DNA from: a virus
Direction: 5' to 3' (one strand)
IMG/VR virus record: IMGVR_UViG_3300037247_001602
Span: 30,489 to 94,488 of that record
DNA: 64,000 nucleotides
In this document: positions 394 to 56,599 of the stretch, piece after piece
Layout of the letters: every line of letters begins with the position of its first letter
How positions within the stretch are numbered: position 1 is the first letter of the stretch
Position numbers and translations under genes: made by a program
Notes under the pieces: model-generated
Database searches by the model: none
The model's input: the letters and a program-made list of their open reading frames with translations, nothing else
Told to the model about the DNA's origin: nothing

Positions 394-671
394 CCGTGAT
401 CGAGAAGATCGCGTATGTGGGCGGCAAGGGCCCCAAATTCAAGGTCTTGAGGGATGGCCGCGTAAATCTCGATCCGGAAGAACGCGCCTTGGTGATGAAG
501 CGCAAGGCTGTCTGGCACATGAACGGTGGAGGTCCAAGCTCAGCGGTATTCAAGTCGAATGTGAAGGGGAAAACCTGGTACACGACTCACACGCACAGAG
601 CCTATAATGTGACCCCCACGCTGAAGGGAACGATCAACCGCTTCCATAAATTCATAAAGGGCACATCATGA
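390..671 (+). CDS. Small basic protein with N-terminal IEKIA tag
   Basis: A 93-residue basic protein starting at a GTG that overlaps the previous stop codon (GTGA). It begins M-T-V-I-E-K-I-A, the tag shared with the proteins at 668, 19314, 20097, 21515 and 25683. No known domain is recognised; the C-terminal half is rich in His, Lys and Thr. It lies in the run of short overlapping genes in front of the portal gene. A packaged or head-associated protein is a guess from the tag and the location. Confidence 0.7.
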   Translation: MTVIEKIAYVGGKGPKFKVLRDGRVNLDPEERALVMKRKAVWHMNGGGPSSAVFKSNVKGKTWYTTHTHRAYNVTPTLKGTINRFHKFIKGTS

Positions 672-874
672 AGATGATCGAGAAGATCGCTCGCGAGATG
701 CCGAGCTTCACTAAGCAAAAGCGACCTGCCAAAGTGAAAGAGATCTACCGTGCGCTCAAGCGGGAGCACCCCGAGATGCCAGCAGCCATGAAAGCTCGCA
801 TCGCCGGTCGCCAGGGCAAAGTCGGAAAACAAGAAGTTGGACCTCCGTACACGGCTCCACTAAGTGGAAAATGA
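668..874 (+). CDS. Small basic protein with N-terminal IEKIA tag
   Basis: A 68-residue, strongly basic protein beginning M-K-M-I-E-K-I-A. The ATG overlaps the TGA of the previous gene (ATGA). No domain is recognised. The length, charge and tag resemble the 57-residue protein at 21515, suggesting small DNA- or scaffold-associated virion proteins, which remains inference. Confidence 0.65.
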   Translation: MKMIEKIAREMPSFTKQKRPAKVKEIYRALKREHPEMPAAMKARIAGRQGKVGKQEVGPPYTAPLSGK

Positions 875-880: not shown

Positions 881-1597
881 ATGAGAGCCGAACTGGTGAT
901 AGAGCCGCTAGACACCACTGGACGGATTAAATCTGCCGACGAATGTTTCATCGAAGCATTCCATAGTCCCGGTGCGAACGGATCTGTCAGAAAACTAGCC
1001 GCAGTCCAAAAGCCAGATTCGTGGGAAGCGGGTAGGCCTCCGGGATGGTACTCCCAGACTCTCATCAAGAAATACGATCGGCTCTGGTTCGAATGGGAGC
1101 CAGAAACTCTCTGGTCCACGATCGAGAAAGATTTCAATACCGCAGTTTCCGAACTGACGCGGAACAAGATCAACGCCGCGAAGCTCATTTACCTGACGGA
1201 TGCATTCTGGAAGGAGTGGCATGTCTTCGAGAAAGTAGTTCAGGCCTTCACTGATCACATTCCCGACTTCTTCTCCGTAGAGCCTCCCAGCCCGGCAGAG
1301 GTCGCATGGGGCGTTTACGAAGTCAACCGGATGCGACCCAATATCACATTCTCCGAGGAAGTCGCAAGTTACGTTCAGGGGATCTGCAAGGAGGCAGGAC
1401 TCGTTCTCTTTCCCGAAGAACTGGAATTCGCACAGCCGAAGCCGTTGGGAACGCTTGCGGCTGACGTGAGGGCCGGATGGCAGATGATCAAAGAGTTGAA
1501 AGAGATTGAAATCGTAGAGAATGAGATCGGCGTGAATCTTGTAAGATTACAGGCCATCCGTGCTTACGTGGAGGAGCAGTTCAGTGAGCATGAATGA
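881..1597 (+). CDS. Unknown protein upstream of portal
   Basis: A 238-residue protein that I cannot assign to a family. It is soluble, with a Trp-rich central region and a helical C-terminal segment rich in Glu. It starts 7 bases after the preceding gene and overlaps the following gene, so it belongs to the same operon that leads into the portal gene. A head-assembly role is likely only by context. No signal peptide or membrane segment is visible. Confidence 0.75.
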   Translation: MRAELVIEPLDTTGRIKSADECFIEAFHSPGANGSVRKLAAVQKPDSWEAGRPPGWYSQTLIKKYDRLWFEWEPETLWSTIEKDFNTAVSELTRNKINAAKLIYLTDAFWKEWHVFEKVVQAFTDHIPDFFSVEPPSPAEVAWGVYEVNRMRPNITFSEEVASYVQGICKEAGLVLFPEELEFAQPKPLGTLAADVRAGWQMIKELKEIEIVENEIGVNLVRLQAIRAYVEEQFSEHE

Positions 1598-1871
1598 CCA
1601 GATAATCTCTGGATTCATCGACGAGATCGAGAAAGTCGCCCGCCTCACGGGAAAAGATATTGCTCGTGGAGCTGCTCTCGGAGCCTTGACTGGCATAACA
1701 GTAGGAACAGTCAAGGGTTATACAGAGAAGAAACTTGAAAAGAAACTTAAGAAAAAGTACGGGAAAAAGAGTGAGGTTCCTTGGGCAGCAGCCAGAGGCG
1801 TCACAAGCGCAGGAGCGGGTGCTCTTTATGCCTTGGCGCCACTGATTGCACTTGCTAAGATGAAGAAATAG
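1584..1871 (+). CDS. Small Gly/Ala-rich protein with DEIEKVA motif
   Basis: The GTG at 1584 is preferred because GGAGGAG at 1570-1576 lies 7 bases upstream; an ATG at 1590 is the alternative. The product has about 95 residues. Near the N-terminus it carries D-E-I-E-K-V-A, a variant of the IEKIA tag. A Gly/Ala-rich stretch follows, then a Lys-rich middle and a hydrophobic C-terminal segment rich in Ala and Leu that could be membrane-active or a packing helix. It ends 2 bases before the portal start. Function unknown. Confidence 0.65.
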   Translation: MSMNDQIISGFIDEIEKVARLTGKDIARGAALGALTGITVGTVKGYTEKKLEKKLKKKYGKKSEVPWAAARGVTSAGAGALYALAPLIALAKMKK

Positions 1872-1873: not shown

Positions 1874-3856
1874 ATGGCTGATCAAAGCCAATTCAATCTC
1901 GTCCGGCGTCGGGGTAATTTCAATTACCCTAGCCCGTACTTCGATATTTCCTCTACGTATGTTCCGCCGTCAGTCAAGGAACTGTTCAAGTGGTGCCGCT
2001 TCTTCTTTTACTCCCATTCGATCATTAGTCCGATTATCTACAAGATTTCGGAATATCCAATCACAGGACTGATCTATCAGAGCGTCGAATCTGATCAACC
2101 CCTACCTGAGCAGGCTAAGAGCAAATGGAAGACGCTGCTTGAGAGCACTCTTAAACTGAAGTCCAGACAGATCGAGATTCTTCTCGATTATAATACCTAC
2201 GGCAACGCATTCCTTTCGATCTTGTATCCGTTCAAACGCTATCTTGTCTGCGAGAAATGCGATACCAGATCAGCCATTGAGAAGACCTCCTATAAGTGGA
2301 AAGACCTGAAGTTCTACGGAGAATGTCAGAAGTGCAACCAACAAGTCGAATTCCAGATCAACGACGTAGAAGTCAAGAATAGATCGCAATGCCGTCTTAT
2401 TCGCTGGAATCCGTTCAATATAAGTATCGATCACTGTGGACCCACGGATGAACGAGTCTATGTATACAAAATCCCGTCCAAGGACAAGAAGTCCATTATT
2501 GCCGGGAAGAAATTTTGGATTGAACGCGCTCCATATGTCTTCATTGAAGCTGCGCGAAAGAACCAGGATATCGAACTAGATCCGAACAATCTATTCCACT
2601 TCAAGCGTCCTTCGATCGCCGATAATGATATGGGATGGGGAATGCCGATCGTTCTCCCTGTCCTGAAGGACGCCTATTGGCTTCAGATTCTACGTAAGGC
2701 GAACGAGGCGATCAGCCTGGAGCATATTGTCCCGTGGAGAATTATCTTTCCTGCGGCCAACGCAGATGCATCGCCTTATGTCAATCTGAACCTGAATTCT
2801 TGGAAGAATCAGATCGAGAAGGAGGTCAGGCGTTGGCGCCAGGACCCGAACCATATCTCGGTCATGCCGCTCCCGATCGGGAATATCAGCTTCGGTGGGG
2901 ATGCCAAGCTGCTTCTGGTTTGGCAGGAAGAGAAACTTATGCAAGGCCAAATCGCAGGTGGCCTTGGAGTTCCTCTCGAATTGGTATTCGGCGGACTCAC
3001 GTGGTCTGGATCATCGGTATCACTACGAGTGCTAGAGAATCATTTTCTCACAGATAGGGAATTGCTCGATGAATTCGTCAACGAATTCCTGATCCCGCGC
3101 CTGACGCGATATTTCCGGCTGCCGAAACTCAAAGTCAAGATGATTGAGTTCAAGATGGCCGATGATGTTCAGCAGAAACAGTTGGCCATGCAACTCAATC
3201 AGGCAGGGAAACTATCAGATACAACTCTTCTTGGCCAGTCGGGGTTCGACTTCGATGATGAAGTAAAACTCAGAAGGGCCGAGCAAATTCAGCTTATTGA
3301 GATGCAGAGAAAAGCCCTGATGCAACAGGCCGAACTTCAAGGAATGACACAGGTTGTCGGAGCCAAATACCAAGCTGTTGCTCAACTCGAAATGTCACGA
3401 GCGCAAAATGTGGCGAATCAGGAGGCCATGGAGGGGCAGTATGAATTCCAGAAAGGCGTCCAACAGGAACAGCAACAGCAGGCCACGCAGCAGATAGCCA
3501 TCGATCAGGCGCAAGGGCAGCAGGGCCAGGGGAAAGGCCAACAGTCGGCAGTTCCCATGGCACAAGGTGGTGTCGTCTCAGGACAAAAGCCAGGACAAAA
3601 GCCAGGGCAGAAATCAGATCAGAAGCCGGGCCAGATGCCGACGGTAAATACCATGGATATGGTTCGCTCCTGGGCACAGGGATTGATGTCACTACCAGAG
3701 GAACAGCGTGAGATGGCGCTCGGTTCCTATGAGCAAGAACACCCTGAGACAGTCGCGCTGATCCGTCAATTCATGAAGGAGATGTTGAAGCAGACGGCAG
3801 ACATGAGACCAAACCCAGAAGTAAAACCTCCAAGAAGAAAGAACACAACAGTCTAG
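1874..3856 (+). CDS. Portal protein with zinc-ribbon insertion
   Basis: A 660-residue protein that fits the portal family: Y-N-T-Y-G-N-A-F-L near residue 106 matches the conserved core strand of portals, and an H-F-K-R-P segment is followed by a Gly-Trp-Gly-Met-Pro turn and a long amphipathic helix. Portals form the dodecameric DNA channel at the head vertex and dock the terminase. Four cysteines (C126, C129, C151, C154) form a zinc-ribbon inserted after the core, which is uncommon. The last 180 residues are a Gln-rich helix followed by low-complexity G-Q-K-P repeats. The gene sits between small head genes and fibre-like genes. Assignment rests on motif recognition and context. Confidence 0.8.
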   Translation: MADQSQFNLVRRRGNFNYPSPYFDISSTYVPPSVKELFKWCRFFFYSHSIISPIIYKISEYPITGLIYQSVESDQPLPEQAKSKWKTLLESTLKLKSRQIEILLDYNTYGNAFLSILYPFKRYLVCEKCDTRSAIEKTSYKWKDLKFYGECQKCNQQVEFQINDVEVKNRSQCRLIRWNPFNISIDHCGPTDERVYVYKIPSKDKKSIIAGKKFWIERAPYVFIEAARKNQDIELDPNNLFHFKRPSIADNDMGWGMPIVLPVLKDAYWLQILRKANEAISLEHIVPWRIIFPAANADASPYVNLNLNSWKNQIEKEVRRWRQDPNHISVMPLPIGNISFGGDAKLLLVWQEEKLMQGQIAGGLGVPLELVFGGLTWSGSSVSLRVLENHFLTDRELLDEFVNEFLIPRLTRYFRLPKLKVKMIEFKMADDVQQKQLAMQLNQAGKLSDTTLLGQSGFDFDDEVKLRRAEQIQLIEMQRKALMQQAELQGMTQVVGAKYQAVAQLEMSRAQNVANQEAMEGQYEFQKGVQQEQQQQATQQIAIDQAQGQQGQGKGQQSAVPMAQGGVVSGQKPGQKPGQKSDQKPGQMPTVNTMDMVRSWAQGLMSLPEEQREMALGSYEQEHPETVALIRQFMKEMLKQTADMRPNPEVKPPRRKNTTV

Positions 3857-11285: not shown

Positions 11286-14200
11286 ATGCTCGACTTCGAA
11301 GCTCAGGCTAGGAACAGCGAGAAGAGTCTCGTCGCCGCCATCAAGGCGATATTCCCCTATGCCGGGAAGAAGCAGACTCTCATTGCAGAGCGTATTTGGA
11401 TCGACAAGGAAGCACGAACTTTCGGGGACTTTGGTTCTCAGAAAGAGGTGAAAGGCAAAGATAAAACTTGGGCAATGCCGATCTACGGCAAGTTTCGCCT
11501 CGTGGACAACGCCACCAATGAAGTCATCGATCGGATCGACAAGATGACCCTGGTGAACCTGCCTCTGGCTACCGCTCGCGGAAGCTATATCGTGCGCGGG
11601 AGCGAGTACCAGGTCGCCAATCAGTTCCGCCTGAAGCCGGGCGTCTACACAAGAATCCAGCAGAACGGAGAGCTTGAGTCCCAGGTGAATCTGGCGAAAG
11701 GCATGAACTTCAGGATTCTCCTGGCGCCCAACTCCGGGATCTTCTTCATGAAGCTGGGGGAGACGAAGATACAACTCTATCACCTGCTCACGGCATTCGG
11801 CGTATCCCGCAGCGCCATAGAATCGATATGGGGACCGGAATTGACAGCCAAGAATTCCAAGAAAGGAAGCCAAGATGGCGAGGTTAATAAAGCTTACAAG
11901 ATCATATTTAGGAAAGAACCGGAAAATCTAGCAGAGGCGATTTCGAGCCTTGAGACTTACTTTGCTGGCAATGTGATAGATCGGAGCACGACGAAGCTCA
12001 CGCTGGGCAAGGGATTCAAGAACGTCAACGCAGATCTATTACTGAGGACTTCTGCAAGGATATTATCTGTCTCTCGCGGAGAGGATAAGGCGGACGACCG
12101 GGACTCCCTGGAATTCAAGCAGCTCTTGTCGGTGGATGATTTCCTGAGAGAGCGCATCGATAAGAATGCGAATAAGATCAAGTTCAAGATGCGTTTCAAC
12201 ATCGATCGCAAGGACAACATCCGGGAGATTATGGGTCTTTCCACGTTCAATTATCCGATAGAGAGCTTCTTCACGGGCGGGGCAGAAGCATTCGGCGGCA
12301 ATACGGGGCTGTCCAGCACGCCTGAGCAGACGAATCCCCTGCATATGCTCTCGGAGACCTCGAAAGTTATCCTGTCGGGCTCCGGAGGGATCACCAACCC
12401 ATATCAAGTTACTGTCGAGGCCAGGGCCGTCCATCCATCCACCATGGGCTTTGTAGATCCCGTGCACACGCCGGAGTCGGATCGCATAGGTACAACACTT
12501 CAGCTTCCTCTTGGCATCAAGAAAAAAGGGCAGAAAATATTGGCGGGTTTCTATAGTGTCAAGACTGGGAAGGTAGTTGATCTAGCCCCCGATCAGGCTG
12601 CGGATTCAGTCGTTTCTTTTAGAGATCAGTATGACGAGAAGAATGGCAAGTTGAAGCCTAAAACACGGAACGTAAAGGCCTCTGTGAAAGGCAAAATATC
12701 CATAGTCCCAGCAAATGAAGTCGAATATGTCATCCCGTCGCCGCAAGCTATGTTCGGGATAGCAACAAACATGATTCCTTTCTTACAAAACGATCAGGGC
12801 AATCGCGCCATGATGGCTGGCAAGATGATGACGCAGGCGCTCCCTCTGGTAAATAGAGAAGCCCCTCTCGTCCGCGTCGTGGCTGGCAAAGGCGTGGTCT
12901 TCGAAAGTGTTGCCGGCCAGGGATTCTCGCACAGAGCGCCAGTATCCGGGACTATCACGAGCGCAACCGAGAAGGAAGTCGTAATCAAAGGGGCGGACGG
13001 CAAGCGCCATACCGTGTCTCTGTACGACAATTTCCCACTCAACTCAAAAACAGCATTCATCGATGCGGAAGTTGTCGTGAAGAAAGGAGATAAAGTCAAG
13101 AAAGGGCAACTGCTTGCCGATACGACATTTACGAAGGATGGAGACCTTTCGCTTGGAATCAACGCAACTGTCGCATATATGCCCTTCAAAGGCTATAATT
13201 TCGAGGACGGAATCGTCATCAGCGAGAGTTTCTCTAAGAAATTCACATCATCGCACCTCTACAAACTTACGACTTCAATAGACAAGCAGACTCTGATGAA
13301 CCTTGCCAAGTTCAAGGCTTACTATCCGGAAGCTCTGGATCTCGCTTCGGCCAGCCGACTCGACTCGGATGGCGTCATCAAGAAAGGCGAGATCGTGAAG
13401 TTTGGCGACACGGTAATGTCCGTATTGAGGAAGGAGGAGAAAGGCCCGGAGGATCTGATTCTTGGGAGACTGCACAGAGCATTCATTAAGCCGTACAAGA
13501 ACAAGTCGGTGTTATGGGAGGAGGAGGACGAGGGCGAAGTTGTCGATGTTATCAAAACGGCGAGGAAGATCGAGGTTCATATCCGTACTGCCGAGCCAGC
13601 GAAGATTGGCGATAAGCTGGCCGGCAGGCACGGAAACAAAGGCACGATCACTTTCATCGGCGGAGATGCCGAGATGCCCACTACGGCAGATGGCGAAGTC
13701 ATTGAAGTCCTTTTGAATCCCCATAGCATTCCTGGGAGAATCAATCCAGGCCAGATCCTCGAAACGGTTGCAGGCAAGATTGCCGACAAGCAGGGCCGGC
13801 CATTTGATGTGCGTAACTTCACTGGCAGAAATTATTTGGAGGACGTGGAGAGAGCCGCAAAGAAGGCAGGCGTTCAAGACAAAGAAGATCTCGTCGATCC
13901 GGTGACGAACCAGAGACTTCCTGGCGTTCTCGTCGGAAAGCAATATATGCTGAAGCTGGACCACCCGACGAGGAAAAAATTCTCTGCTCGCGCCCAGGGG
14001 AGTTACACAGCCGACTTGCAACCATCTCGTGGTAAACACGAGGGCGGGCAGTCGATGGACACCCTGACGCTCTACTCGATGCTGTCACACGGAGCAAAAG
14101 CAAACCTGAGAGAAATGGCCACGTACAAATCTGGGCGTAACGATGAAGTATGGCGCGCCCTCCAGCTTGGCCAAAGTCTTCCGGCTCCCGCTGTTCCTTT

Positions 14201-17200
14201 TGCCACCGAGAAATTCATCTCGATGGTGAAGGGTCTTGGCGTGGACGTGAAGAAAGACGGGAATACCCTGGCCCTGTCTCCGATGACGGATAAGAAGATC
14301 CTAGAATATAGTTCTGGATCTATCAAGAATTCAAAGATTGTGCGGGGCAAGGATCTGAGGCCGGAAAAGGGCGGATTGTTTGATCCGATCATCACGGGCG
14401 GTGTTGCGGGCACGAATTGGAATCATATCGAACTAGCTGAGCCGATGCCGAATCCGATATTTGAAAACGCGATCAAGGCTATCTTGGGAATCACGGGAAC
14501 AATCTACGAGGATATTATTTCCGGGCGGCGTTATGTGACTCCGGATGGACAAATCGTTCCTGAATCCACTGATGAGACGGAAACGGGTGGTATCGGCATC
14601 AAGATCTTGCTATCCAAGATCGATATGGACAAGAAGATCAAGGAGCTGTTGGTCCAAGCCAAGAAGAAAAAAGGCGCCGCCCTGGACAAGATCAACAAGG
14701 TTATTCGTTACCTGACAGCGCTCCAGAAGAATGGACTCAAGCCGACTGATTATATCATCAAAAACATACCCGTGATGCCGGCTCGTTTGCGCCCTGTCTA
14801 CCCGCTTCCGGATGGGAGCCTGAACGTAACCGAGGTGAACCATCTCTATAAGGATCTGATTGATCTGAGCGATCAGAATCGGGACTTTATAGCCCTGGAT
14901 ATGCCCGACCAAGATATAGCCCCGCTGAGGGAGAATGTCTACAAGGGCATGAGGGCTCTCGTCGGCCTGCAAGACCATCTCGGCGGAAGGGGATACAAGG
15001 GACTCATCGAGCAGATAAGAGGCAACACGAACAAGGAGGGATTCTTCCAGAACCGTATCATGAGCCGTCGCCAGGAATTCTCAGGGCGATCAACCATTGT
15101 CCCTGAGCCTGCCCTTGGCCTCGATGACGTAGCCATTCCCGAAGAGATGGCCTGGAAAATATATCGTCCGTTTATCGTCAGGGAGCTGGTTCGCCAGGGC
15201 TACAAAGACAGCGCCCTAGAGGCAAGGGAGGAGCTGGACAAGAAGACCCCCTTGGCTATGAGAGCCTTGCAGATAGCTATGGAAGACCGGCCTGTGATGC
15301 TCAACCGGGCTCCGTCGCTGCACAAATTCAGCATTATGTCATTCATGCCACAACTCACCACGGGTAAGGCAATTAAGATAAACCCCTTGGTGGTAAAGGG
15401 TTACAACGCAGATTTTGACGGGGACACAATGGCCGTCCATGTTCCGATCACAGAAGAAGCACGAAACGAATCGTTCAAAATGCTGCCGAGCAGAAATTTA
15501 TACAACCCGCGAAGCGGCGAACTGATGAACTATCCCACTCAGGAGGCGATTACCGGACTCTATCTATTCACGCAGAGCCCGAAGGGCAGAGCAACGCTCA
15601 ATGCCATTCTCCCTGCGGCGAAATACCACATCAAGGGACCATTGACTGCCAAGGAGATGATAAGCGTTCTGGATCGGATCTCGAAGGAAATGCCGAACCA
15701 ATTCACTAAAGTCGTCAATGCACTCAAAGATATTGGGAATAGAGCATCTTACGAAATGGGATTTTCTGTCGGTCTTGAAGATCTCAAGATGGATTATTCC
15801 TCCAGGGATAGGATATTTAACGAGGCCGAAAACGCAATCAAAAAAGTGAAAGGCGACAAGACACAAGCAATCATCGATGCTTATACAAGTGCGGCGAAGA
15901 AACTCGACGTAGCTCTTCTTGGGGACAAGCGACTAAGAGCCAACTCCTTCATGATTATGGCCAGATCTGGCGGGAAGGGAAATATAGGCCAAATCAGACA
16001 GATCTTGGCTGGGCCTGTCCTCGTCAAGGATGTTCATGATCGCACTATTCCGGTTCCGATTAAGAAATCATATTCAGAAGGGTTGGACTTGGCGGACTAT
16101 TGGGCGTCAATGGCTGGTGCCCGAAAAGGTATGATTGACAGATCCCTGCAGACTTCTATCCCTGGTGCATTCGCCAAGGAACTTCTCAATGTTACCGTGA
16201 ATCACGTCATCTCGATAGCTGACTGCAAGACTACACGCGGCGTTGAAATCCCAGTGGACGATTCTGACATTCTGGATCGTTATCTGGCGCGAGGGATCAA
16301 GGACGTAGCCAGAAGAAACTCGATCGTGACGGCATATGTGATCAAGAAGGCCAGAAAGAATAATGTGAAGACCCTGCTTGTCCGAAGTCCGCTGACTTGT
16401 GAGGCCGAACAGGGCGTCTGCCAAAGATGTTACGGGCTCTCGGATAATGGGAGGCCTCCTGAAATCGGGACGAATGTTGGAGTGGAGGCTGGCCAATCAA
16501 TGGCGGAGCCTGCCACCCAGATGGTTATGCGCAGTTTCCATACGGGAGGAGCCGCAGGAATGGCAGGCGGGATCGTATCTGGATTCACGAGAATCTCCGA
16601 TCTCCTGAAGATGCCCAAAATCCTGAAAAATAAGGCAACTCTATCCCGAGAGTCCGGGAAAATCACGAAGATAGACACCTCTCCGATTGGAGGATGGAAT
16701 GTCTGGGTTGATGACGAAGAGCACCATGTGCCTGCCGGAAGACGAGTTCTTGTCAAACAAGGCCAAACAGTCTCGATGGGCGACCGCCTCAGTGATGGCC
16801 CAATTAAGCCGCAGGAACTTCTCGAACTACGAAACATGCGTGAAACACAGGATTATATTGTAAATTCGCTCAAGGATGAATATTTGAATCAAGGCATCCA
16901 AATGAGGCGCCGCGTCCTGGAAACAGTCGTCCGCCCGCTGACAAATTCAGCCAGAGTAACGCATCCGGGTGGACACGAGGCATATGTGCCCGGCGATCAT
17001 GCCCCACTGACTATTCTCGATGCATATAACCGCAAAGCTAAACCTGAAGACAAGATCGAATATGAACCGATTATTCGGGGAATCAACACGGCGCCCTTGG
17101 CGAGCCAGGACTGGATCACGAGGTTGAATTTCCAGCGCCTCAAAGAAACGCTCATCGAAGGCCCCGCGCAAGGCTGGAAATCTGATATTGCCACAATCGG

Positions 17201-17306
17201 TGCACCCCTGGCCGCATATGCATATGGTCCACTGATCGGAAGAGAGCGCGAAAAAGCTGCTGAAGATACTGCCCAACTAGAGGAGATTGGCAGTGTCTCA
17301 GAATAG
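11286..17306 (+). CDS. Fused beta/beta-prime DNA-dependent RNA polymerase
   Basis: One 2006-residue chain contains both catalytic subunits of cellular-type RNA polymerase. The beta part (to about residue 1000) shows the R-G-S-Y-I-V-R-G lobe motif, D/E-Q-T-N-P-L, G-Y-N-F-E-D (636), G-R-H-G-N-K-G (780-786) and the beta C-terminal clamp pattern. The beta-prime part has the R-R-x-E-F-S-G-R-S switch region, the catalytic N-A-D-F-D-G-D (1374-1380) with all three Asp, the trigger-loop start G-A-R-K-G (1611), and the second zinc site (C1647, C1705, C1712, C1715). The first beta-prime zinc ribbon is missing: G-L-F-D-P runs within about 15 residues into H-I-E-L-A. It is shorter than the E. coli subunits combined (about 2750). 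The clamp-helix region that binds sigma is retained in length. The next gene overlaps its end. It may be packaged in the virion or act late; unknown. Confidence 0.95.
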   Translation: MLDFEAQARNSEKSLVAAIKAIFPYAGKKQTLIAERIWIDKEARTFGDFGSQKEVKGKDKTWAMPIYGKFRLVDNATNEVIDRIDKMTLVNLPLATARGSYIVRGSEYQVANQFRLKPGVYTRIQQNGELESQVNLAKGMNFRILLAPNSGIFFMKLGETKIQLYHLLTAFGVSRSAIESIWGPELTAKNSKKGSQDGEVNKAYKIIFRKEPENLAEAISSLETYFAGNVIDRSTTKLTLGKGFKNVNADLLLRTSARILSVSRGEDKADDRDSLEFKQLLSVDDFLRERIDKNANKIKFKMRFNIDRKDNIREIMGLSTFNYPIESFFTGGAEAFGGNTGLSSTPEQTNPLHMLSETSKVILSGSGGITNPYQVTVEARAVHPSTMGFVDPVHTPESDRIGTTLQLPLGIKKKGQKILAGFYSVKTGKVVDLAPDQAADSVVSFRDQYDEKNGKLKPKTRNVKASVKGKISIVPANEVEYVIPSPQAMFGIATNMIPFLQNDQGNRAMMAGKMMTQALPLVNREAPLVRVVAGKGVVFESVAGQGFSHRAPVSGTITSATEKEVVIKGADGKRHTVSLYDNFPLNSKTAFIDAEVVVKKGDKVKKGQLLADTTFTKDGDLSLGINATVAYMPFKGYNFEDGIVISESFSKKFTSSHLYKLTTSIDKQTLMNLAKFKAYYPEALDLASASRLDSDGVIKKGEIVKFGDTVMSVLRKEEKGPEDLILGRLHRAFIKPYKNKSVLWEEEDEGEVVDVIKTARKIEVHIRTAEPAKIGDKLAGRHGNKGTITFIGGDAEMPTTADGEVIEVLLNPHSIPGRINPGQILETVAGKIADKQGRPFDVRNFTGRNYLEDVERAAKKAGVQDKEDLVDPVTNQRLPGVLVGKQYMLKLDHPTRKKFSARAQGSYTADLQPSRGKHEGGQSMDTLTLYSMLSHGAKANLREMATYKSGRNDEVWRALQLGQSLPAPAVPFATEKFISMVKGLGVDVKKDGNTLALSPMTDKKILEYSSGSIKNSKIVRGKDLRPEKGGLFDPIITGGVAGTNWNHIELAEPMPNPIFENAIKAILGITGTIYEDIISGRRYVTPDGQIVPESTDETETGGIGIKILLSKIDMDKKIKELLVQAKKKKGAALDKINKVIRYLTALQKNGLKPTDYIIKNIPVMPARLRPVYPLPDGSLNVTEVNHLYKDLIDLSDQNRDFIALDMPDQDIAPLRENVYKGMRALVGLQDHLGGRGYKGLIEQIRGNTNKEGFFQNRIMSRRQEFSGRSTIVPEPALGLDDVAIPEEMAWKIYRPFIVRELVRQGYKDSALEAREELDKKTPLAMRALQIAMEDRPVMLNRAPSLHKFSIMSFMPQLTTGKAIKINPLVVKGYNADFDGDTMAVHVPITEEARNESFKMLPSRNLYNPRSGELMNYPTQEAITGLYLFTQSPKGRATLNAILPAAKYHIKGPLTAKEMISVLDRISKEMPNQFTKVVNALKDIGNRASYEMGFSVGLEDLKMDYSSRDRIFNEAENAIKKVKGDKTQAIIDAYTSAAKKLDVALLGDKRLRANSFMIMARSGGKGNIGQIRQILAGPVLVKDVHDRTIPVPIKKSYSEGLDLADYWASMAGARKGMIDRSLQTSIPGAFAKELLNVTVNHVISIADCKTTRGVEIPVDDSDILDRYLARGIKDVARRNSIVTAYVIKKARKNNVKTLLVRSPLTCEAEQGVCQRCYGLSDNGRPPEIGTNVGVEAGQSMAEPATQMVMRSFHTGGAAGMAGGIVSGFTRISDLLKMPKILKNKATLSRESGKITKIDTSPIGGWNVWVDDEEHHVPAGRRVLVKQGQTVSMGDRLSDGPIKPQELLELRNMRETQDYIVNSLKDEYLNQGIQMRRRVLETVVRPLTNSARVTHPGGHEAYVPGDHAPLTILDAYNRKAKPEDKIEYEPIIRGINTAPLASQDWITRLNFQRLKETLIEGPAQGWKSDIATIGAPLAAYAYGPLIGREREKAAEDTAQLEEIGSVSE

Positions 17307-19314
17307 TTTGGACAGAATGCTTCTCATGCTCTCTGGCGATACACTTCAAGAGAAAATCGCGCAGTCAATCGTTGCGCCCACGCTTCAAGATACCAAAATC
17401 GAAACGGAGAAGATCGAACCAGGTCCAGGATTGAAAGAGGGCGTCCAGCTTACCCCGGCACAGATTGATTTCTCTAGATTCATCGCAGACCGTCGTGGGA
17501 TCGGAATCGCTGCTTGGAAACCTGGCGCCGGAAAGACACTTGGTACAATCGCTGCATTCCTGAATCTGAGGGCTCGGGGAGAGGCCAAGAAGGCAATCGT
17601 ACTTGTTCCCGCTTCATTGCGAGTGAACTTTGCTGAAGGAGGCGTCACTAAATTCACAGATGCCCAATATGGAATCATCGGGAACAAACAAGAAGCCGCA
17701 TCTTTCGCCGACATGGATGTTGAGCGCATGGGAGAGAAGGATTTTTATATCATCTCCCATGATATGTTTAGGGCTAACTCCGATTATTATTTGCAGAAAA
17801 CCGGCGCCGATACGGTCATCATGGATGAAATGCACCGTGTCAAAGATCCGCAATCCGTATTAAATGACGTAATCGAAAAGGTTGGCCCTACTGTCCGGAA
17901 TTTCATCGGCGCTACAGCAACGCCAGCAATGAATAAGCCCTTCGAGGCGATCGAGCTGAAAAATGTAATCAGTTCTCCCGAGGAACGATTCACGGAGAAG
18001 CAATTTACGCAAGCATTCATCGAGCGCGCTCCAAGAGATTTCTGGGAAAGAGTCCGAAGCTTGTTCGGAGGTAAACGCACCGGAGAGATCAAAGGATTCA
18101 AACGAAGGAAAGAGTTAGCCGAGCTGTTAGGTCGAACATTCCATTTTGCCGACCCTAAAGTTAAAGGGATGCCGAAGAAAGACGTTCAAATCATCGAAGT
18201 TCCGATGACCCCTACTCAGGAACAGAATTATCACGCGATCTTGAAGAAGAAACTGAACAGGCGCGAGCAACAGATTCTACGAGAGGGACAACTTTATCCT
18301 GATCGTGAAATGATCAAGATCCTCAACAAGGCCATGGCGACGCGCCAGCTATCAAACAACGCCAGGTGGGTTGAGGGCGATTTGCCAGAAAGAGCGGGAG
18401 CCGAAACGCCCAAAATACTGAGAATGACGAGAGACATTGAAGATCATATTAAGAGGCGACCTGATGCACAGATCATCATCGCATCGAACTTTGTTGGGTC
18501 TGGCGCGAAACTTATGGAGGCCATGCTCAAGCAGAGGGGTATATCATTCGGGAAATACTACGGGAAAGGCCAGGAGGGAATAACAGGGGAAACGAGAGAA
18601 CAGGCGATCAAGAACTATAACGCCGGCAAAGTCAAGGTTATGCTCATGACCGGCGCTGGCGCCGAGGGGCTGGATCTTCCGAATACGACGATGCACCTGA
18701 CGATGGACCCCCACTATAATCCCGAGAGAATCACTCAGCAAGAGGCTAGAGGAATCCGTCGTGGCGGGCAGGCTCATATTCCTCCCGAGAAGCGCAAAGT
18801 GATCGTGAAGCGCTATATATCAGTTCCCAGACAGGGATTCTCGATCGAGCGATCTATCTACCAGATCGCCGCAAAGAAGAAGGCCTTAGTCGATCAGCTA
18901 AAGCAGATCGGATTGGAAGCCCAGCAGGAGAGAGCGAGAAGAGATCCTGGACGCAGAAGGGCATTGGCCTTATTCTCTAGGCGCCAGCAGAAGCCTCAAT
19001 TACCCCAGGAGCCTGAGCGTCCCAAGCAGCCCATGATGAAAGCCGCTGGGAACGGGGGATATCTGAATGCTCGTGGTAATTTCGATGAGCACACAGTCCG
19101 ATTAATCGGTGGATCTCAGGCCGCATTCAATGTGGATTCAGGGGATACAATCGATCGAAAGTTCCATGCGCAAACTCGACTTGGGAAGTGGAGCAAGCGG
19201 AGAAAATCAACCTTGACGGGCAAGGAGCAGGCCCGGATGCGATTTACCGGGAAGACGGAAGGTAACCTAGGCCCGAACGAAAATGCCCAGCCGATAACAC
19301 GAGTAGGCTACTGA
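17293..19314 (+). CDS. SNF2/RapA-like helicase-family ATPase
   Basis: The GTG at 17293 is chosen because AGGAG lies 7 bases upstream; a TTG at 17287 is too close. The 673-residue protein has all SF2/SNF2 motifs: Walker A K-P-G-A-G-K-T (about 76-82), D-E-M-H in motif II, G-A-T-A-T-P in motif III, A-E-G-L-D-L-P in motif V and Q-E-A-R-G-I-R-R-G-G-Q in motif VI. Such proteins translocate on duplex DNA; bacterial RapA, of this family, binds and recycles RNA polymerase. Here the gene overlaps the fused polymerase gene by 14 bases, so a polymerase-associated role is a strong inference. L-Q-E-K-I-A near residue 18 resembles the IEKIA tag. The basic C-terminal ~100 residues are not conserved in SNF2 proteins. 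Confidence 0.88.
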   Translation: MSQNSLDRMLLMLSGDTLQEKIAQSIVAPTLQDTKIETEKIEPGPGLKEGVQLTPAQIDFSRFIADRRGIGIAAWKPGAGKTLGTIAAFLNLRARGEAKKAIVLVPASLRVNFAEGGVTKFTDAQYGIIGNKQEAASFADMDVERMGEKDFYIISHDMFRANSDYYLQKTGADTVIMDEMHRVKDPQSVLNDVIEKVGPTVRNFIGATATPAMNKPFEAIELKNVISSPEERFTEKQFTQAFIERAPRDFWERVRSLFGGKRTGEIKGFKRRKELAELLGRTFHFADPKVKGMPKKDVQIIEVPMTPTQEQNYHAILKKKLNRREQQILREGQLYPDREMIKILNKAMATRQLSNNARWVEGDLPERAGAETPKILRMTRDIEDHIKRRPDAQIIIASNFVGSGAKLMEAMLKQRGISFGKYYGKGQEGITGETREQAIKNYNAGKVKVMLMTGAGAEGLDLPNTTMHLTMDPHYNPERITQQEARGIRRGGQAHIPPEKRKVIVKRYISVPRQGFSIERSIYQIAAKKKALVDQLKQIGLEAQQERARRDPGRRRALALFSRRQQKPQLPQEPERPKQPMMKAAGNGGYLNARGNFDEHTVRLIGGSQAAFNVDSGDTIDRKFHAQTRLGKWSKRRKSTLTGKEQARMRFTGKTEGNLGPNENAQPITRVGY

Positions 19315-20054
19315 TGCTGATTGAGAAGATAGCTGTTTTTGGGGTCCGCGCTCAGGCACAAGTGCTGAAAGCCTTCAAGCGCAGGGCGCTACCTAAACAA
19401 TGGTATCGTAGGGTGGGCAAACCTTTAGTAGGCGTTGAGGGCCCTATAGGGGCTGCGTCGGAATTAGAAATGAAAAGAGCAACGAGAGCTGCCAACATGT
19501 TTGCTCCCATTCTTGGAGTGCCTCGCCTGAAATATGTAACTGCTCCGCACATTGGAAAAGCCTGGACTGCTGGAAAAGGAGATACTGTAACCCAACTAAC
19601 CAATTTCGTGTCTAAACATCGTCCTTCACGCGGAAAAACCTTAAGATCAATTGTTAAGACCATGAAACCTGAAGATCGGAAAGCGGTCAATGCGATCATT
19701 AAGGCTCATGAACTAGATGAACTTAATATACCTCTGAAACTACGCGAGAAAGGATATTTGGGCGCACTTGAACATTCTGGATTTGAAGTCATGTTTAGAG
19801 AAAGCAATAGAGTCAGGGCGCTTCCAAAAAGAATGAAGGCGGCTAAAACATTCATGAAAGAACTTCATCGGGGAACTACGGATGAACTTGCACTGAAGCC
19901 GGTTCCCGGATTCAGATATGGAGAGACAAAAATAAACAGATCGGCCAGGCGAAGGGCAATGGCTATTATTGTTAGGCATGATGAGGCCATACTAGAAGAT
20001 TATTCAAAATGGAGCGCATATATAAAGAAGCTTACGGAGATAAAAAAGAGTTAG
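19314..20054 (+). CDS. Basic protein with N-terminal IEKIA tag
   Basis: A 246-residue, highly basic protein starting M-L-I-E-K-I-A; its ATG overlaps the TGA of the SNF2 gene (TGATG). No domain is recognised. The high Lys/Arg content through the whole length suggests nucleic-acid or scaffold binding. It is cotranscribed with polymerase, SNF2 protein and ligase, so a role in a packaged transcription or DNA-processing complex is plausible but unproved. Confidence 0.7.
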   Translation: MLIEKIAVFGVRAQAQVLKAFKRRALPKQWYRRVGKPLVGVEGPIGAASELEMKRATRAANMFAPILGVPRLKYVTAPHIGKAWTAGKGDTVTQLTNFVSKHRPSRGKTLRSIVKTMKPEDRKAVNAIIKAHELDELNIPLKLREKGYLGALEHSGFEVMFRESNRVRALPKRMKAAKTFMKELHRGTTDELALKPVPGFRYGETKINRSARRRAMAIIVRHDEAILEDYSKWSAYIKKLTEIKKS

Positions 20055-20096: not shown

Positions 20097-21518
20097 ATGA
20101 ACTTTATCGAGAAAATAGCAAGGCGCAAACGCAAGAAGAAGGAATTTGCGCCTGGACTTCCCAGAAGAGAGCAGACGACGAATCCTCCCGTCACAGAAAA
20201 GCCGAAAATATGGGCTTCTGTTATTCAGCGACACGACGCCAGGCGAGCCGGAACTCATTTTGATTTCCGTCTTGGCGATCTAGAGACTGGGATAGGCCAC
20301 TCCTGGGCGATGCGTAAGCTTCCTGGACCTGGCGAGAAAGTCCTGGCTATCCAACAGCCCGATCATACGATCCCCTATTTCAAATTCACAGGCGAGATCC
20401 CTGTCGGTTATGGCGCCGGCGAAGTAGGGCGCCACAGCCTGCTCGACGCAGAGGTATTGGAATCCGATAAGAATCGTGTCATTTTCAACCGCTATGACGG
20501 GCGCGATACGCACGAATACGTCCTTCGCCGAATGGACGACAAGCATTGGCTCCTCATCAATCGCACTCCAACAGCCAAGTCAGAACCAATGCCTGAATCC
20601 AAGCCCAAATACAAAGAGATCAAGCCCGGCCAGGTTGATCCGAAGGCCCCAGGCAGATGGGATGCCAAGATCGACGGTGCGTCTCTGAACTATGTCATCC
20701 ATGATGGCAAGCCTATTCGGGCTTTCTCGTATCGCCGCAGTAGGCGAGGGCCGGCCCTGATCCAGCATACGCAACGAATTCCTACTCTACAGGGCGAGAA
20801 GGCACCCAAAGGGTACAAGAGGACGATCCTGAGAGGTGAAGTCTGGGCCACGAATCCCAAGACGAAGAAGGCGATTGAAGCACGGGAACTGGGAGCCTTA
20901 TTGAATTCTCATGTGCTGAGATCACGCAGGCTTCAGGAATCGAAAGGAAAACTTAAGAATATTATCTTCGACATTGTCATGCACAAAGGCAAGAATGTCG
21001 AAGGATTGCCTACGGAAGAAAAGCGCCGCCTGATCGACGAGGTGATCAAAGATTCCAGATTCAAGGGAATATTCGAGAAGCCGTCTTCTGCCACGACACC
21101 TTCTGCGAAAATGAAACTCTTCGAGAAGATCCGCAAGAAACAACACAAACAAACGAAGGAAGGAGTCATCATCCATTCCCCTGAAGGCGTGATGACGAAA
21201 GTGAAATTCAAACCCGAATGGGACGTTGAGATCTCCGGCATCTTCACGAAGCCTAAATCAAAGGCCAAGGGGCAAGCGGGAGGATTCACCTATCGCAAGC
21301 TAGATGGCAAGAGGATAAGCAGGCTGTCCCGTGTAGGAACAGGATTCAGTCGCAAATTACGCGAAGCGATGTATGAGAATCCGGAAGACTTTGTCGGCGT
21401 AGTAGCCAAAGTCACAGGGATGGAGCAGTATCCTTCTGGCGCGATCCGCACCCCTTCTTTCGTTGGATGGCATTTAGATAAGAACGAGCCGGCCATGATT
21501 CCGGAGATCAAAAAGTGA
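20097..21518 (+). CDS. LigD-like phosphoesterase-ATP-dependent DNA ligase
   Basis: A 473-residue protein with two domains after an M-N-F-I-E-K-I-A tag. Residues about 38-160 match the LigD 3'-phosphoesterase domain: R-H-D-A-R-R (H46), T-H-F-D-F-R-L (H54, D56, R58) and P-D-H (H90) correspond to the family's metal-binding and catalytic residues. Residues about 185-470 are an ATP-dependent ligase: A-K-I-D-G with the nucleotide-accepting Lys at 191, E-G-V-I-I in motif IV and K-V-K-F-K in motif V. The phosphoesterase trims 3' ends before sealing, as in bacterial end joining. No Ku or polymerase domain is seen nearby. Overlaps the next gene by four bases. Confidence 0.88.
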   Translation: MNFIEKIARRKRKKKEFAPGLPRREQTTNPPVTEKPKIWASVIQRHDARRAGTHFDFRLGDLETGIGHSWAMRKLPGPGEKVLAIQQPDHTIPYFKFTGEIPVGYGAGEVGRHSLLDAEVLESDKNRVIFNRYDGRDTHEYVLRRMDDKHWLLINRTPTAKSEPMPESKPKYKEIKPGQVDPKAPGRWDAKIDGASLNYVIHDGKPIRAFSYRRSRRGPALIQHTQRIPTLQGEKAPKGYKRTILRGEVWATNPKTKKAIEARELGALLNSHVLRSRRLQESKGKLKNIIFDIVMHKGKNVEGLPTEEKRRLIDEVIKDSRFKGIFEKPSSATTPSAKMKLFEKIRKKQHKQTKEGVIIHSPEGVMTKVKFKPEWDVEISGIFTKPKSKAKGQAGGFTYRKLDGKRISRLSRVGTGFSRKLREAMYENPEDFVGVVAKVTGMEQYPSGAIRTPSFVGWHLDKNEPAMIPEIKK

Positions 21519-21786: not shown

Positions 21787-22902
21787 ATGGCAACGCCGCT
21801 ACATACAGCGCAGAGATTCGGATCGGATCGCCCGACTGAAGATCCGTACAATCAGTCGGCTACGCCGTTCCTGGAAGGGATTATCCGTGATGTGGATTCC
21901 GAGAAGTGGACATGTGAGGTTAAGACACTAGGCCTGGATCAGTCCCTCCAAGATGTCCGGATCATGTCGCCATATTTTAATTTTACGAATGGCCATGGAA
22001 TGTTCCAAATTCCAGAAATCGGCTCAATGTGCGTGGTTAGTCGCACGCAGTCTGATTGGTTCGTTGTCGGTTTCATACCGCCTTCCGATGTGGATGATAC
22101 TGAAGGTACGGAATCAGATGAGGCCACGACAGGCAGCCAGAACCTATCAGAGCCCTTCCTGGGCCAGGTAGCGGCCATTCAGAGCCGGCTACTAAAGCAA
22201 GAGCAAGGGGGAAACGGAATACCCAAACGGCACTCATTCAGATCTAACCGCGAAGGAGATATGATCCCTGGAGACGGATGCCTGAAAAGCCGGGCCGGAA
22301 ATAAATTCAAATGGTTTACAAATGGGAATCTTCTGGCCGAAGCATCGAAACTCTGCCAGAGAATATGGTCCCGATTGCAGAATCAGATCATAGATATTGC
22401 CGCCCGTTACAGTCTGCTCACTCCTGGAGTCCAGAAAGAGATCACCGTCTCTGATGAAACGCGGGAAGTCCTTGAGACGATTAAAGTTAGAAGAAAGACA
22501 GATGACGATACGCCGCAGATACAAATCAAGAGAGGATTCATCAATGGCCAAGAAGTCTATGAATTTATCGTTCAGGACAATAGCGGCGTAAAACACAGAA
22601 TCACCATTGGGACCGATGGTGAGCGCCTAGTCACAATTGGAGATCCCTCTTTCCCGGCAGTTAAGATTGAATCGAAACCATCAGGTGAGTATAATCTCAC
22701 CGCGACTACAGCGGTCAAAGTAGACGCTCCAAGCGTCATCGTAGGCGTGACAGGAGCCGAGGACTTTCTCGTGAAACTGAGTTCCTTGCTCGTCAAGTAC
22801 AACGCTCATACGCATAATGGGAATTTGGGGGCTCCGACTGGGCCAGTTCTTTCTGGTATCCTTGATAGTTCAGATGGAACGACAAAGCTGAGAGGCGGAT
22901 AG
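21787..22902 (+). CDS. Baseplate spike/hub protein, gpV (gp5) type
   Basis: A 371-residue protein. Residues about 25-100 have the pattern of the OB-fold N-terminal domain of phage baseplate assembly protein V. The centre is a beta-rich repeat region. The C-terminus has a K-Y-N-A-H-T-H-N-G motif followed by a Gly/Pro-rich end, as in gpV-like spikes whose His residues bind iron near the tip. Such proteins form the membrane-piercing spike under the tail tube of contractile-tailed phages, which supports a myovirus. A sigma70-like promoter lies directly upstream and a GGAG site precedes the next gene. Confidence 0.75.
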   Translation: MATPLHTAQRFGSDRPTEDPYNQSATPFLEGIIRDVDSEKWTCEVKTLGLDQSLQDVRIMSPYFNFTNGHGMFQIPEIGSMCVVSRTQSDWFVVGFIPPSDVDDTEGTESDEATTGSQNLSEPFLGQVAAIQSRLLKQEQGGNGIPKRHSFRSNREGDMIPGDGCLKSRAGNKFKWFTNGNLLAEASKLCQRIWSRLQNQIIDIAARYSLLTPGVQKEITVSDETREVLETIKVRRKTDDDTPQIQIKRGFINGQEVYEFIVQDNSGVKHRITIGTDGERLVTIGDPSFPAVKIESKPSGEYNLTATTAVKVDAPSVIVGVTGAEDFLVKLSSLLVKYNAHTHNGNLGAPTGPVLSGILDSSDGTTKLRGG

Positions 22903-22911: not shown

Positions 22912-24822
22912 ATGGATCTTTTCATCGAGACTCCGACTTTCGAGAAGACTGCATCGATCAAACTCTCGGAAGATATAAACGAGTGGCCTATACAGATCAC
23001 TCAGCATCTTCACGAAGAACATCCCTATCTCGTGGATGAATCATCGGAGGTCATCATCAAGAGATCCGATGCTCTTCGCGGCTACGGATATGGATTCGTG
23101 AAGATCGGAGAAAACGTGCGCGTGCCAGTTATCGTGAATCAATACGAGATGAGTCCCCTGGATGTTTGGCTTGATAAGAAGGGACTGGCCCATGTCCTCG
23201 ATGAAGATGCTGTCAGAGGAGCAACTCAGTCAACGACACTCGGCAAGGCTATCAAGCAACAGACCGATGGCTATGTCGATTCGCTGATCTACAGCAGAAC
23301 CTATCCGCCCTATGACGGCAAGTACGTATATGCTGCCGCCAACCACGAAACAGAAATAGCTGTCCACCCACGCCCATATGTTTCAGTTCTGTCCTCGATT
23401 CCGATGACGCCAGAGGAAAGGAAGGTTAACTTCGAGAAGCTGGCCCAATCCGTCGTGGCTGGATTTCATGCGAATGGAACGGACGTGACAGTTCTTAAAC
23501 CATGGCTCTCAGACGGATTCGAGAAGGTCGCCGCTGAACGGGACAAGCGTGCGAGCCCTATTGGAGCCTATTGCTCTGAGGATGCACCGATTCCCGATGC
23601 GATCATCAAGGAAGACATGAATACGGGCGATCCTCAGGTCGCCGACTCGTATGGTGACTACTTATGCGAAGGCAAGTCCGGAGAAAGATACATCGGTCAC
23701 GTTTTTCCCCATGTATACGATTTTGATCTCAAGCCCGTCGATCTTGCGATCTTCAAAGGCCGGTGGCAGCCGGATGTGAAACCAGGAGCAAGGTATCCAG
23801 TCGGACCAAAGATATGCTCCTCTGTCCAGGCCAGAATCGCCGGAATTAAGCTTCCAAAGAGCAGGAAACTACATGACGATCACGCCCGCTCGAATGAGCG
23901 CGGATTCTTCGTCAAAGAGAAGGGAGAGGCCGCAGTCGCCCTCATCCCCGTCACTATCCTGTCCGTGGCTCGGTCAAGAGAGCATCACGAGACGAAAAGA
24001 GAAAACGAGACTTATGACCGCCGAATCAAGATTGAAACAGATTATGAGATCACGAAATTCTATTGCAAGACCGATCTCGGCGAGGCGGTCACGATTGTGA
24101 AGTCGCCTAATACGACCGATGTGAAGCGGTCTGGATCGACAGTCTTCATCCCTGGATCGATGATCTTTTGCCGGCTAGAGACGCCGATCACGCTGAAAGA
24201 AGACCCGGAGATGATCAAGAAGGCTGCCCTGGCTGACTATGGCGTCAATGATATGAGGGTGAACCATATCGATGGCGTTTTCTCGTTCCACGGAACGAAT
24301 GTGGATGGCTATGAACTCCAAGCCGGCGTGCCAGAGAAAGAGGCGAGAGACTTTCTGGAACAAACGTGGACGAAGGAGGCTTCGGAGAAGATCATCAAGC
24401 GTGCCCAGCAGGGCAAGCCAGGAATCGCAACGACTATTCATGTCGCAATCGCGCCTCCTAAATTTGAAAAGACAGCTTCGGATCACATTGTCGAAGTGAA
24501 TGAAGAGGGGGTTGTCCTCACAGATCCGGAAGCGTTTGCGTTGAGGCTCCAGTATCTCACGCGGGATTTCGATAAGATTGCGGCAACGCTCCAAGATTCA
24601 GGACTCGTGGATTCCGTCTTGAGTCTGAAATTCATCAACAAAGAGAACATTGACAAATATGCTGAATTCGCTCCTCAGTTCGAAGAAGCCGTGAACCACT
24701 TGGCTGATTTGCTGATCGCATCTCGCGTCGGCCTTCAGATTCAGGAAGAAGCCGTCAAGACGGCCATGAAGAACATGGCCATCGTTGTGCGTGAGCTAAA
24801 GACGCTGAAAGGGATCAAATGA
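22912..24822 (+). CDS. Large unknown virion-module protein with repeated FEK-x-A motifs
   Basis: A 636-residue protein starting 9 bases after the spike gene. I do not recognise a family. It contains V-P-V-I-V-N-Q-Y-E-M-S-P-L-D-V near residue 65 and has an acidic helical C-terminal region. A short motif F-[ED]-K-[TLVI]-A occurs five times (near the N-terminus, then mid-chain twice, then twice in the last quarter) and resembles the IEKIA tag of other proteins. Context suggests a virion, tail or scaffold protein. The motifs could be protease sites or binding sites; nothing proves this. Confidence 0.65.
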   Translation: MDLFIETPTFEKTASIKLSEDINEWPIQITQHLHEEHPYLVDESSEVIIKRSDALRGYGYGFVKIGENVRVPVIVNQYEMSPLDVWLDKKGLAHVLDEDAVRGATQSTTLGKAIKQQTDGYVDSLIYSRTYPPYDGKYVYAAANHETEIAVHPRPYVSVLSSIPMTPEERKVNFEKLAQSVVAGFHANGTDVTVLKPWLSDGFEKVAAERDKRASPIGAYCSEDAPIPDAIIKEDMNTGDPQVADSYGDYLCEGKSGERYIGHVFPHVYDFDLKPVDLAIFKGRWQPDVKPGARYPVGPKICSSVQARIAGIKLPKSRKLHDDHARSNERGFFVKEKGEAAVALIPVTILSVARSREHHETKRENETYDRRIKIETDYEITKFYCKTDLGEAVTIVKSPNTTDVKRSGSTVFIPGSMIFCRLETPITLKEDPEMIKKAALADYGVNDMRVNHIDGVFSFHGTNVDGYELQAGVPEKEARDFLEQTWTKEASEKIIKRAQQGKPGIATTIHVAIAPPKFEKTASDHIVEVNEEGVVLTDPEAFALRLQYLTRDFDKIAATLQDSGLVDSVLSLKFINKENIDKYAEFAPQFEEAVNHLADLLIASRVGLQIQEEAVKTAMKNMAIVVRELKTLKGIK

Positions 24823-25491: not shown

Positions 25492-25683
25492 ATGGCGACG
25501 ATTATAGGCACTCAAACATCCGAGACCCCCAAAGATAAGACTGTAACCCTGAAAGGAGAGGCGGTCCTGAATCCTGCGGACGCAGCATTACAGATCGATA
25601 TTCCTATCGATCATCAGGCTCCAACCGGAAGGCGACTGAAAGTATCGTGGACAGTCACGATTCTTGAAGAGGATAATACTTAG
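25492..25683 (+). CDS. Small beta-rich protein
   Basis: A 63-residue protein with a strong GAAGGAGG site. It is predominantly beta with alternating hydrophobic residues, compatible with a small virion protein. Its TAG overlaps the GTG start of the next gene (TAGTG). Confidence 0.6.
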   Translation: MATIIGTQTSETPKDKTVTLKGEAVLNPADAALQIDIPIDHQAPTGRRLKVSWTVTILEEDNT

Positions 25684-26153
25684 TGAGGGTTATTGAGAAA
25701 ATCGCTGATGCACCGAAGGCAAAGAAGAATCTCCAAGGCTCTCTTCCGAAGACCTGGGGAGTTCTCTATGCACATCCAAATCCAGACGGGTCCCGCAAGA
25801 AGTGCGACAATTGCATGATGTTTATTTCTGGCGAGAAGCAATGCGAAATCCATGATATAAACATTGTCGTTACGAAAGAGGATGTTTGTGGCTACCATGT
25901 TTACGGCAAGACGCATCCCAAGCGGATGCACAAGCCTGACAATGTTCACCTTCAGGCCGTGGACCCGAAGCATAGCGGACTGGCGAAAGTCCCTGGCGGG
26001 ACTTCGTGCGGCACATGTGAATACTTTAAGAACTCGAAGAACGGGAAGGGGACGTGCATCGTTGTCCAGGAAGGGGTTGGAGAGGATGAATCGACGGGCA
26101 AGCTAGCCACTGTTGAAGCACTTGGATGTTGCGCAAGATGGAAATCCAAATGA
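25683..26153 (+). CDS. IEKIA-tagged Cys-rich protein, two metal-binding repeats
   Basis: A 156-residue protein with a GTG start overlapping the previous stop. It begins M-R-V-I-E-K-I-A. Two Cys clusters follow: C-D-N-C, then two single Cys ending C-G-Y-H; and C-G-T-C-E-Y-F, a single Cys, then G-C-C-A-R-W. Spacing resembles small Fe-S (high-potential iron-sulfur protein-like) modules that are often annotated in phage genomes, duplicated here; zinc is an alternative ligand. Its role in the virion is unknown. The next gene starts inside its stop codon. Confidence 0.7.
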   Translation: MRVIEKIADAPKAKKNLQGSLPKTWGVLYAHPNPDGSRKKCDNCMMFISGEKQCEIHDINIVVTKEDVCGYHVYGKTHPKRMHKPDNVHLQAVDPKHSGLAKVPGGTSCGTCEYFKNSKNGKGTCIVVQEGVGEDESTGKLATVEALGCCARWKSK

Positions 26154-45967: not shown

Positions 45968-46023
45968 CCGAGAGCTAAAAATTCTAATTGTGAATGAGCC
46001 GTCCCTAACAGGAGGGGGCCGAT

Positions 46024-47331: not shown

Positions 47332-47387
47332 CTGGGATCTAAAACTTCTAATTGTGATTGAGGTATCCCTAACAGGAGGGAACCAAT

Positions 47388-56597: not shown

Positions 56598-56599
56598 AT

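Follow-up and report, generated by a model that had tools for sequence, protein, structure and literature searches.

The mReC phages of Weinheimer and Aylward (2020) are reportedly Caudovirales whose RNA polymerase subunits beta and beta' group together and apart from the cellular enzymes. The phage represented by IMG/VR virus record IMGVR_UViG_3300037247_001602 encodes both subunits and has many IMG/VR relatives; we compare it with the mReC phages by these properties. Here, we describe a gene of this phage that encodes a SNF2-family ATPase and overlaps the end of the RNA polymerase gene. The gene lies in a stretch of 64,000 nucleotides (the window, to which coordinates refer unless a relative is named), comprising positions 30,489 to 94,488 of a 94,488-base record that is possibly incomplete.

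Poxviruses package NPH-I (PMC10965686), and the vaccinia virus enzyme (D11) is a SNF2-type ATPase that resides in the particle with the virus's own multisubunit polymerase; it binds via RAP94 (PMC6211774). In phiKZ-group jumbo phages, Snf2 helicases are associated with multisubunit polymerase genes, as in the window, and a RapA-like role has been proposed for them (Iyer et al. 2021, PMC7824862); unlike the window phage, that group has its polymerase in several polypeptides and a Snf2 described as Rad25-related, a comparison made by description. DarB of phage P1, one of the polyvalent proteins (PMC5512222), is a SNF2 ATPase delivered in the virion, as the window protein would be. DarB is coupled to a methyltransferase, whereas the window SNF2 is not accompanied by an adenine methyltransferase, Pfam having detected no methyltransferase domain in it or in the scanned neighboring proteins. 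The closest counterparts are Gp206, Gp216, and Gp217 of Salmonella phage Arash (OQ632216, PMC10585845), which share the polymerase family and the polymerase-SNF2 order and are all three present in the virion proteome.

The window pair comprises the following features.

11286-17306, plus strand: RNA polymerase gene, beta and beta' fused in a 2,006-residue chain, with Pfam, PHROG, and NCBIfam domains in beta-then-beta' order
17281-17285, plus strand: Shine-Dalgarno-like AGGAG of the SNF2 gene, within the polymerase gene, seen in the sequence with a 7-nucleotide spacer to the GTG at 17293
17293-19314, plus strand: gene for a 673-residue SNF2-family ATPase, assigned by domains, motifs, and predicted fold

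The fused polymerase reported in the first-pass annotation was confirmed: Pfam PF00562, PF00623, and PF04998 are among the RNA polymerase domains in this single polypeptide, which contains the catalytic NADFDGD motif and is 34 to 43% identical to its relatives. The SNF2 open reading frame (ORF) had at first been read from a TTG at 17287 to the stop at 19314 (675 residues). The best start appears instead to be the GTG at 17293, preferred because of the AGGAG and its spacing. With this start, the ATPase gene still begins inside the end of the polymerase gene, as had been noticed, and overlaps it by 14 nucleotides (polymerase stop TAG at 17304-17306); its own stop shares one base with the start of the next gene. 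The coupling is real, yet it says little by itself, because 9 of the 18 consecutive junctions in the same plus-strand run overlap.

Its domains and predicted structure identify the protein as a SNF2-family ATPase, catalytically intact as judged by its motifs. Pfam matched SNF2-rel_dom (3.5e-15) and Helicase_C (6.8e-13), and the Walker A (GAGKT), DExH (DEMH), and motif VI arginines are conserved across 13 relatives. An AlphaFold model has a two-lobe fold with a confident core at residues 42 to 560 and low confidence at both ends, and fold comparison returned a standard SNF2 motor. Among the profile matches listed, the best were Sulfolobus Rad54-like proteins and eukaryotic remodelers; vaccinia NPH-I was also matched (87 bits), and viral structure matches include giant-virus proteins that carry an early transcription factor annotation. 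The gene had been called SNF2/RapA-like, and the first half of this label holds. RapA/HepA, the host-encoded recycling factor of bacterial polymerase, shares the SNF2 superfamily ATPase core, whereas membership of the window protein in the RapA family is not supported by its domains or model: the Pfam scan gave SNF2 and helicase families only, with neither the N-terminal Tudor-like pair nor the RapA C-terminal domain, and the roughly 45 low-confidence residues before the core leave no space for the N-terminal domains. Residues 564 to 673 are likewise of low confidence. RapA was also absent among the sequence and structure matches listed, which by itself does not exclude it.

The strongest evidence that a SNF2 of this kind travels with the polymerase comes from Arash virions. 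Unique peptides numbered 128 for Gp206 (beta), 40 for Gp216 (beta'), and 38 for Gp217 (SNF2), next to 32 for the portal protein Gp204 and 30 for the capsid protein Gp226; DNA ligase Gp177, primase Gp183, and helicases Gp193 and Gp197 gave 2 each (PMC10585845). Calculated from these data, the density per 100 residues is 8.4 for beta, 6.6 for beta', 8.1 for SNF2, and 5.5 for the portal protein. This is evidence of co-packaging and not of a complex. As in the window, the Arash beta' gene is followed by the homologous SNF2 gene (1-nucleotide overlap), next to which lies the gene for Gp218, the homolog of window 22912-24822. Unlike in the window, the Arash polymerase is in two genes separated by inserted genes, and its SNF2 has 472 residues, is 31% identical in the alignment, sits on another branch of the SNF2 tree, and lacks the C-terminal tail and the N-terminal tag described below.

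We favor, with a probability of roughly 0.55, a reading in which the window SNF2 is a virion-delivered translocase of double-stranded DNA (dsDNA) that acts on the entering genome, with the polymerase and repair enzymes as co-cargo. The protein would be packaged with the fused polymerase, pass into the host together with the ejected genome, and move along the incoming dsDNA. Poxvirus NPH-I offers a functional precedent for a SNF2-like ATPase borne in the virion with its own polymerase. There, it would clear or remodel DNA-bound proteins or polymerases so that the virion polymerase could start and keep transcribing, and it may help a co-delivered 3'-phosphoesterase/ligase reach nicks or ends. 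The transcription and repair roles carry equal weight and are inseparable from sequence alone.

The position of the pair is consistent with such delivery. Around it lie homologs of Arash virion proteins and genes whose products begin with a short sequence that we call the LEKIA tag.

1874-3856, plus strand: portal protein (phrog_2833), the upstream edge of the virion module, homologous to Arash portal protein Gp204
19314-20054, plus strand: 246-residue protein with no family match in Pfam, PHROG, and NCBIfam scans, with the tag MLIEKIA at its N terminus
20097-21518, plus strand: LigD-type 3'-phosphoesterase and ATP-dependent DNA ligase (PF13298, PF01068), with the tag MNFIEKIA
21787-22902, plus strand: virion protein by homology to Arash Gp238, which was found in Arash virions
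22912-24822, plus strand: virion protein by homology to Arash Gp218 (E value of 1.6e-133), which gave 36 unique peptides in virions
42895-44589, plus strand: terminase large subunit, homologous to Arash gp1

The portal gene and the genes at 21787 and 22912 are the counterparts of those for Gp204, Gp238, and Gp218, all members of the Arash virion proteome, and in closer relatives the polymerase gene lies between the portal gene and homologs of the other two. These flanking genes place the polymerase gene of this family in the virion module. The portal protein also contains a CxxC...CxxC cluster (CEKCDT...CQKCNQ) that is possibly a zinc site. Elsewhere in the window, three adjacent genes at 44654-48704 differ little in length (437, 435, and 438 residues) and are possibly paralogs, the two that were scanned having no family match, and nine tRNA genes occupy 56299-63564 on the minus strand, four of them for tRNA-Ser (anticodons gct, gga, tga, and cga).

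The tag links otherwise unrelated proteins, which begin with MNKYLEKIA in one clade, AFIDELEKIA in another genome (G037), and VIEKIA in the window phage. EKIA was counted 29 times within the first 25 residues of 1,394 nonredundant proteins, where the remainder of the sequences predicts 2.7 occurrences, and permuted versions of the word showed no comparable enrichment. The pattern [LIF]EK[IVT]A within the first 40 residues was found in 29 families; the bearers include many SNF2 proteins of several lineages, several ligases, a C39-peptidase-like protein, and many proteins of unknown function. In the window record, with module boundaries set around the observed gene run, [FLIV]EK[ITV]A is present in 7 of 25 virion-module ORFs versus 0 of 116 elsewhere (Fisher P = 2.5e-6). 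Three other contigs each have their own genome-specific version on several proteins, and a sequence similar to the tag, QFNESFLEKVA, is at the N terminus of the capsid protein in G037. Besides the tagged genes at 19314-20054, 20097-21518, and 22912-24822, the tag search identified four more in the window and a near-match in SNF2.

390-671, plus strand: 93-residue tagged protein (VTVIEKIA)
668-874, plus strand: small tagged protein (MKMIEKIA)
1560-1871, plus strand: small tagged protein (FIDEIEKVA)
25683-26153, plus strand: tagged protein (VRVIEKIA)
17344-17361, plus strand: near-match to the tag in SNF2 (LQEKIA, residues 18 to 23)

The domain of the 390-671 protein is fused to the SNF2 C terminus in locus L080 (24018-26150, minus strand); in L062, its coding sequence (16316-16786) immediately follows the polymerase gene. 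By analogy with the T4 capsid targeting sequence (PMC5694885), a short N-terminal sequence that directs internal head proteins into the prohead, we infer that the LEKIA tag behaves like a sorting signal, possibly for packaging; its sequence differs from that of T4. As a cause of SNF2 packaging in Arash, the tag was rejected, since the Arash protein has none.

Conservation of the pair was assessed among relatives. Single-sequence IMG/VR searches with the polymerase or SNF2 gave no matches, and a three-row polymerase alignment (window, Arash, and Vibrio phage D69) retrieved 80 IMG/VR loci. The expectation that the gene pair would recur in related phages was borne out in the Arash clade (five genomes, 1-nucleotide overlap), which, like the window, has SNF2 directly behind the polymerase; in most relatives, SNF2 is absent or distant. 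The SNF2 proteins of these phages and of Pseudanabaena phage PA-SR01 (circular, 137 kb) form a single well-supported clade, in a tree that kept as an outgroup a separate UvsW-like helicase family into which the iterative SNF2 profile had drifted. Within this clade, the window protein groups with those of L034 and L080 (94/93), whose genes are separated from the polymerase gene by 4.6 and 7 kb. The Arash proteins group with a clade whose polymerase gene is in three pieces. A polymerase tree made by a quick method places the window near phages with a distant SNF2 or none. Neither tree shows an inherited pairing; therefore, adjacency most likely arose at least twice. Ancestral adjacency is less likely given the grouping of the window with L034 and L080 versus that of Arash with the three-piece clade.

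The two genes vary in structure among relatives. In L099 (7938-11594), a same-clade SNF2 is part of a 1,218-residue protein with an inorganic pyrophosphatase domain, and the PA-SR01 SNF2 (L111, 5542-5800) has two RRxFLKN motifs near its N terminus that resemble twin-arginine signals. In the Arash and three-piece clades (L002, 20094-31262; L049, L052, L053, and L055), inserted gene groups divide the fused polymerase gene into two or three segments, and the insert in the three-piece clade carries SNF2 and ligase genes on the opposite strand. Large, intein-like in-frame insertions are present in the polymerases of L020/L022 (2,829 residues) and L034 (2,427 residues) and in the L022 portal protein (1,638 residues). 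Ligase, terminase, and polymerase genes are in in-line fragments in L105 (5586-6623 and 15109-17604), L041 (9989-17053), and L033 (9992-16066), pointing to a reassigned stop codon, sequencing errors, or decay in these contigs.

Several observations weigh against delivery of SNF2 as virion cargo alongside the polymerase. Of 50 other records examined by protein search, 12 contain SNF2, in most cases at a distance from the polymerase; many of the records are fragments, so that absence is only indicative. The protein search also found no SNF2 in polymerase-bearing contigs of 191, 199, 137, and 175 kb, in agreement with a profile search for those retested, and in D69 (186,708 bases) the polymerase is accompanied only by a weak UvsW-like helicase match in place of SNF2. 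Conversely, no polymerase was detectable in PA-SR01 in a search with Arash and D69 as positive controls. SNF2 thus appears dispensable, because most polymerase-bearing relatives have no detectable copy. The authors of the Arash study note that abundant enzymes in virions may be carry-over from infected cells (PMC10585845). The virion data, moreover, are from the Arash homolog, and the window phage is known from its sequence alone. Finally, the window SNF2 has only a near-match to the tag, with Q in place of a hydrophobic residue before EKIA, and the Arash-clade SNF2s have no tag, so that tag and virion presence are not jointly seen in any SNF2.

The ATPase could instead be a dedicated transcription partner, bound to the phage polymerase and responsible for its recycling, release, or termination in the manner of RapA or NPH-I. 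We regard this as possible and somewhat doubtful. SNF2 lies immediately downstream of the polymerase in two lineages, the two have nearly equal peptide densities in Arash virions, and the profile similarity to NPH-I fits such a role, as do the proposal for phiKZ-group phages (PMC7824862) and the association of the fused polymerase of a yeast linear plasmid with an NPH-I-like helicase (PMC6211774). However, most relatives, including D69 and the contigs of 191 and 199 kb, have a polymerase without SNF2, PA-SR01 has SNF2 without a polymerase, the trees show no inherited pairing, and RapA domains are absent. The suggestion that polymerase and ATPase are a functional pair is therefore upheld in part: Arash-like phages have the same pair, the Arash virion contains both proteins in abundance, and a RapA-equivalent role is already in print for phiKZ-group phages, whereas adjacency is neither general nor, probably, of a single origin, and another gene is the commoner neighbor (below). 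The further idea of a self-contained transcription machine was not demonstrated: sigma factors of Arash and D69, used as queries, had no match in the possibly incomplete 94-kb record. It was also suggested that the ATPase might help pull DNA into the cell.

That commoner neighbor is the LigD-type 3'-phosphoesterase and/or ligase, found within about 2.5 kb of SNF2 in 9 of 17 nonredundant loci on several branches (sets of near-identical loci were collapsed to one, as was the Arash clade). In the window, the ligase gene is one gene beyond SNF2, and the phosphoesterase domain forms an N-terminal fusion with SNF2 in L049/L053 and L082. A role in DNA end or nick repair is therefore indicated at least as strongly as the polymerase neighborhood indicates one in transcription. 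On this basis, SNF2 might belong to a DNA repair module, translocating on the incoming DNA to nicks or broken ends, where the phosphoesterase and ligase would clean and seal the 3' ends. The tag common to ligases and SNF2s fits this explanation, which we consider just as doubtful as that of a transcription partner: linkage is absent in the Arash clade, L034, L080, L101, L102, and L103, the ligases of L012, L022, and L062 have no SNF2 nearby, and the Arash DNA ligase gave only 2 unique peptides in virions.

An ordinary replication or recombination helicase of the UvsW/Rad54 type, located behind the polymerase by chance, seems unlikely. Adjacency is uncommon and most likely has two origins, overlaps are common in the window run, and SNF2 genes lie near replication genes in other phages; yet a separate UvsW-like helicase is present in Arash and some relatives, and the density of SNF2 in Arash virions equals the polymerase level. 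Least probable is counter-defense, in which a virion-delivered SNF2 would protect incoming DNA as proposed for DarB, a virion SNF2-methylase of the polyvalent proteins that adjoin virion genes (PMC5512222): one relative has the SNF2-pyrophosphatase fusion, but no methyltransferase domain was detected in the window SNF2 or its scanned neighbors.

Returning to virion delivery, we tentatively extend it to a wider proposal, to which we give rather less than even odds. The LEKIA peptide may be a capsid-packaging tag that loads SNF2, the 3'-phosphoesterase/ligase, and proteins of unknown function beside the fused polymerase, forming a counterpart of the poxvirus core in which the entering genome would be transcribed and repaired before phage gene expression. 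A RapA-equivalent phage Snf2 (PMC7824862), the virion SNF2 DarB (PMC5512222), and packaged NPH-I (PMC10965686) have been published; as far as the searched literature goes, the case in the fused-polymerase lineage, the recognition of SNF2 in the Arash virion data, the phosphoesterase/ligase link, and the tag are new. With Arash in culture and a published proteome at hand, the central claims are testable now. If they are correct, a short tag would make the injected proteins of a large group of uncultured phages predictable from sequence alone, and phages with bacterial-type RNA polymerases would deliver a SNF2 motor alongside the enzyme, converging on the poxvirus solution.

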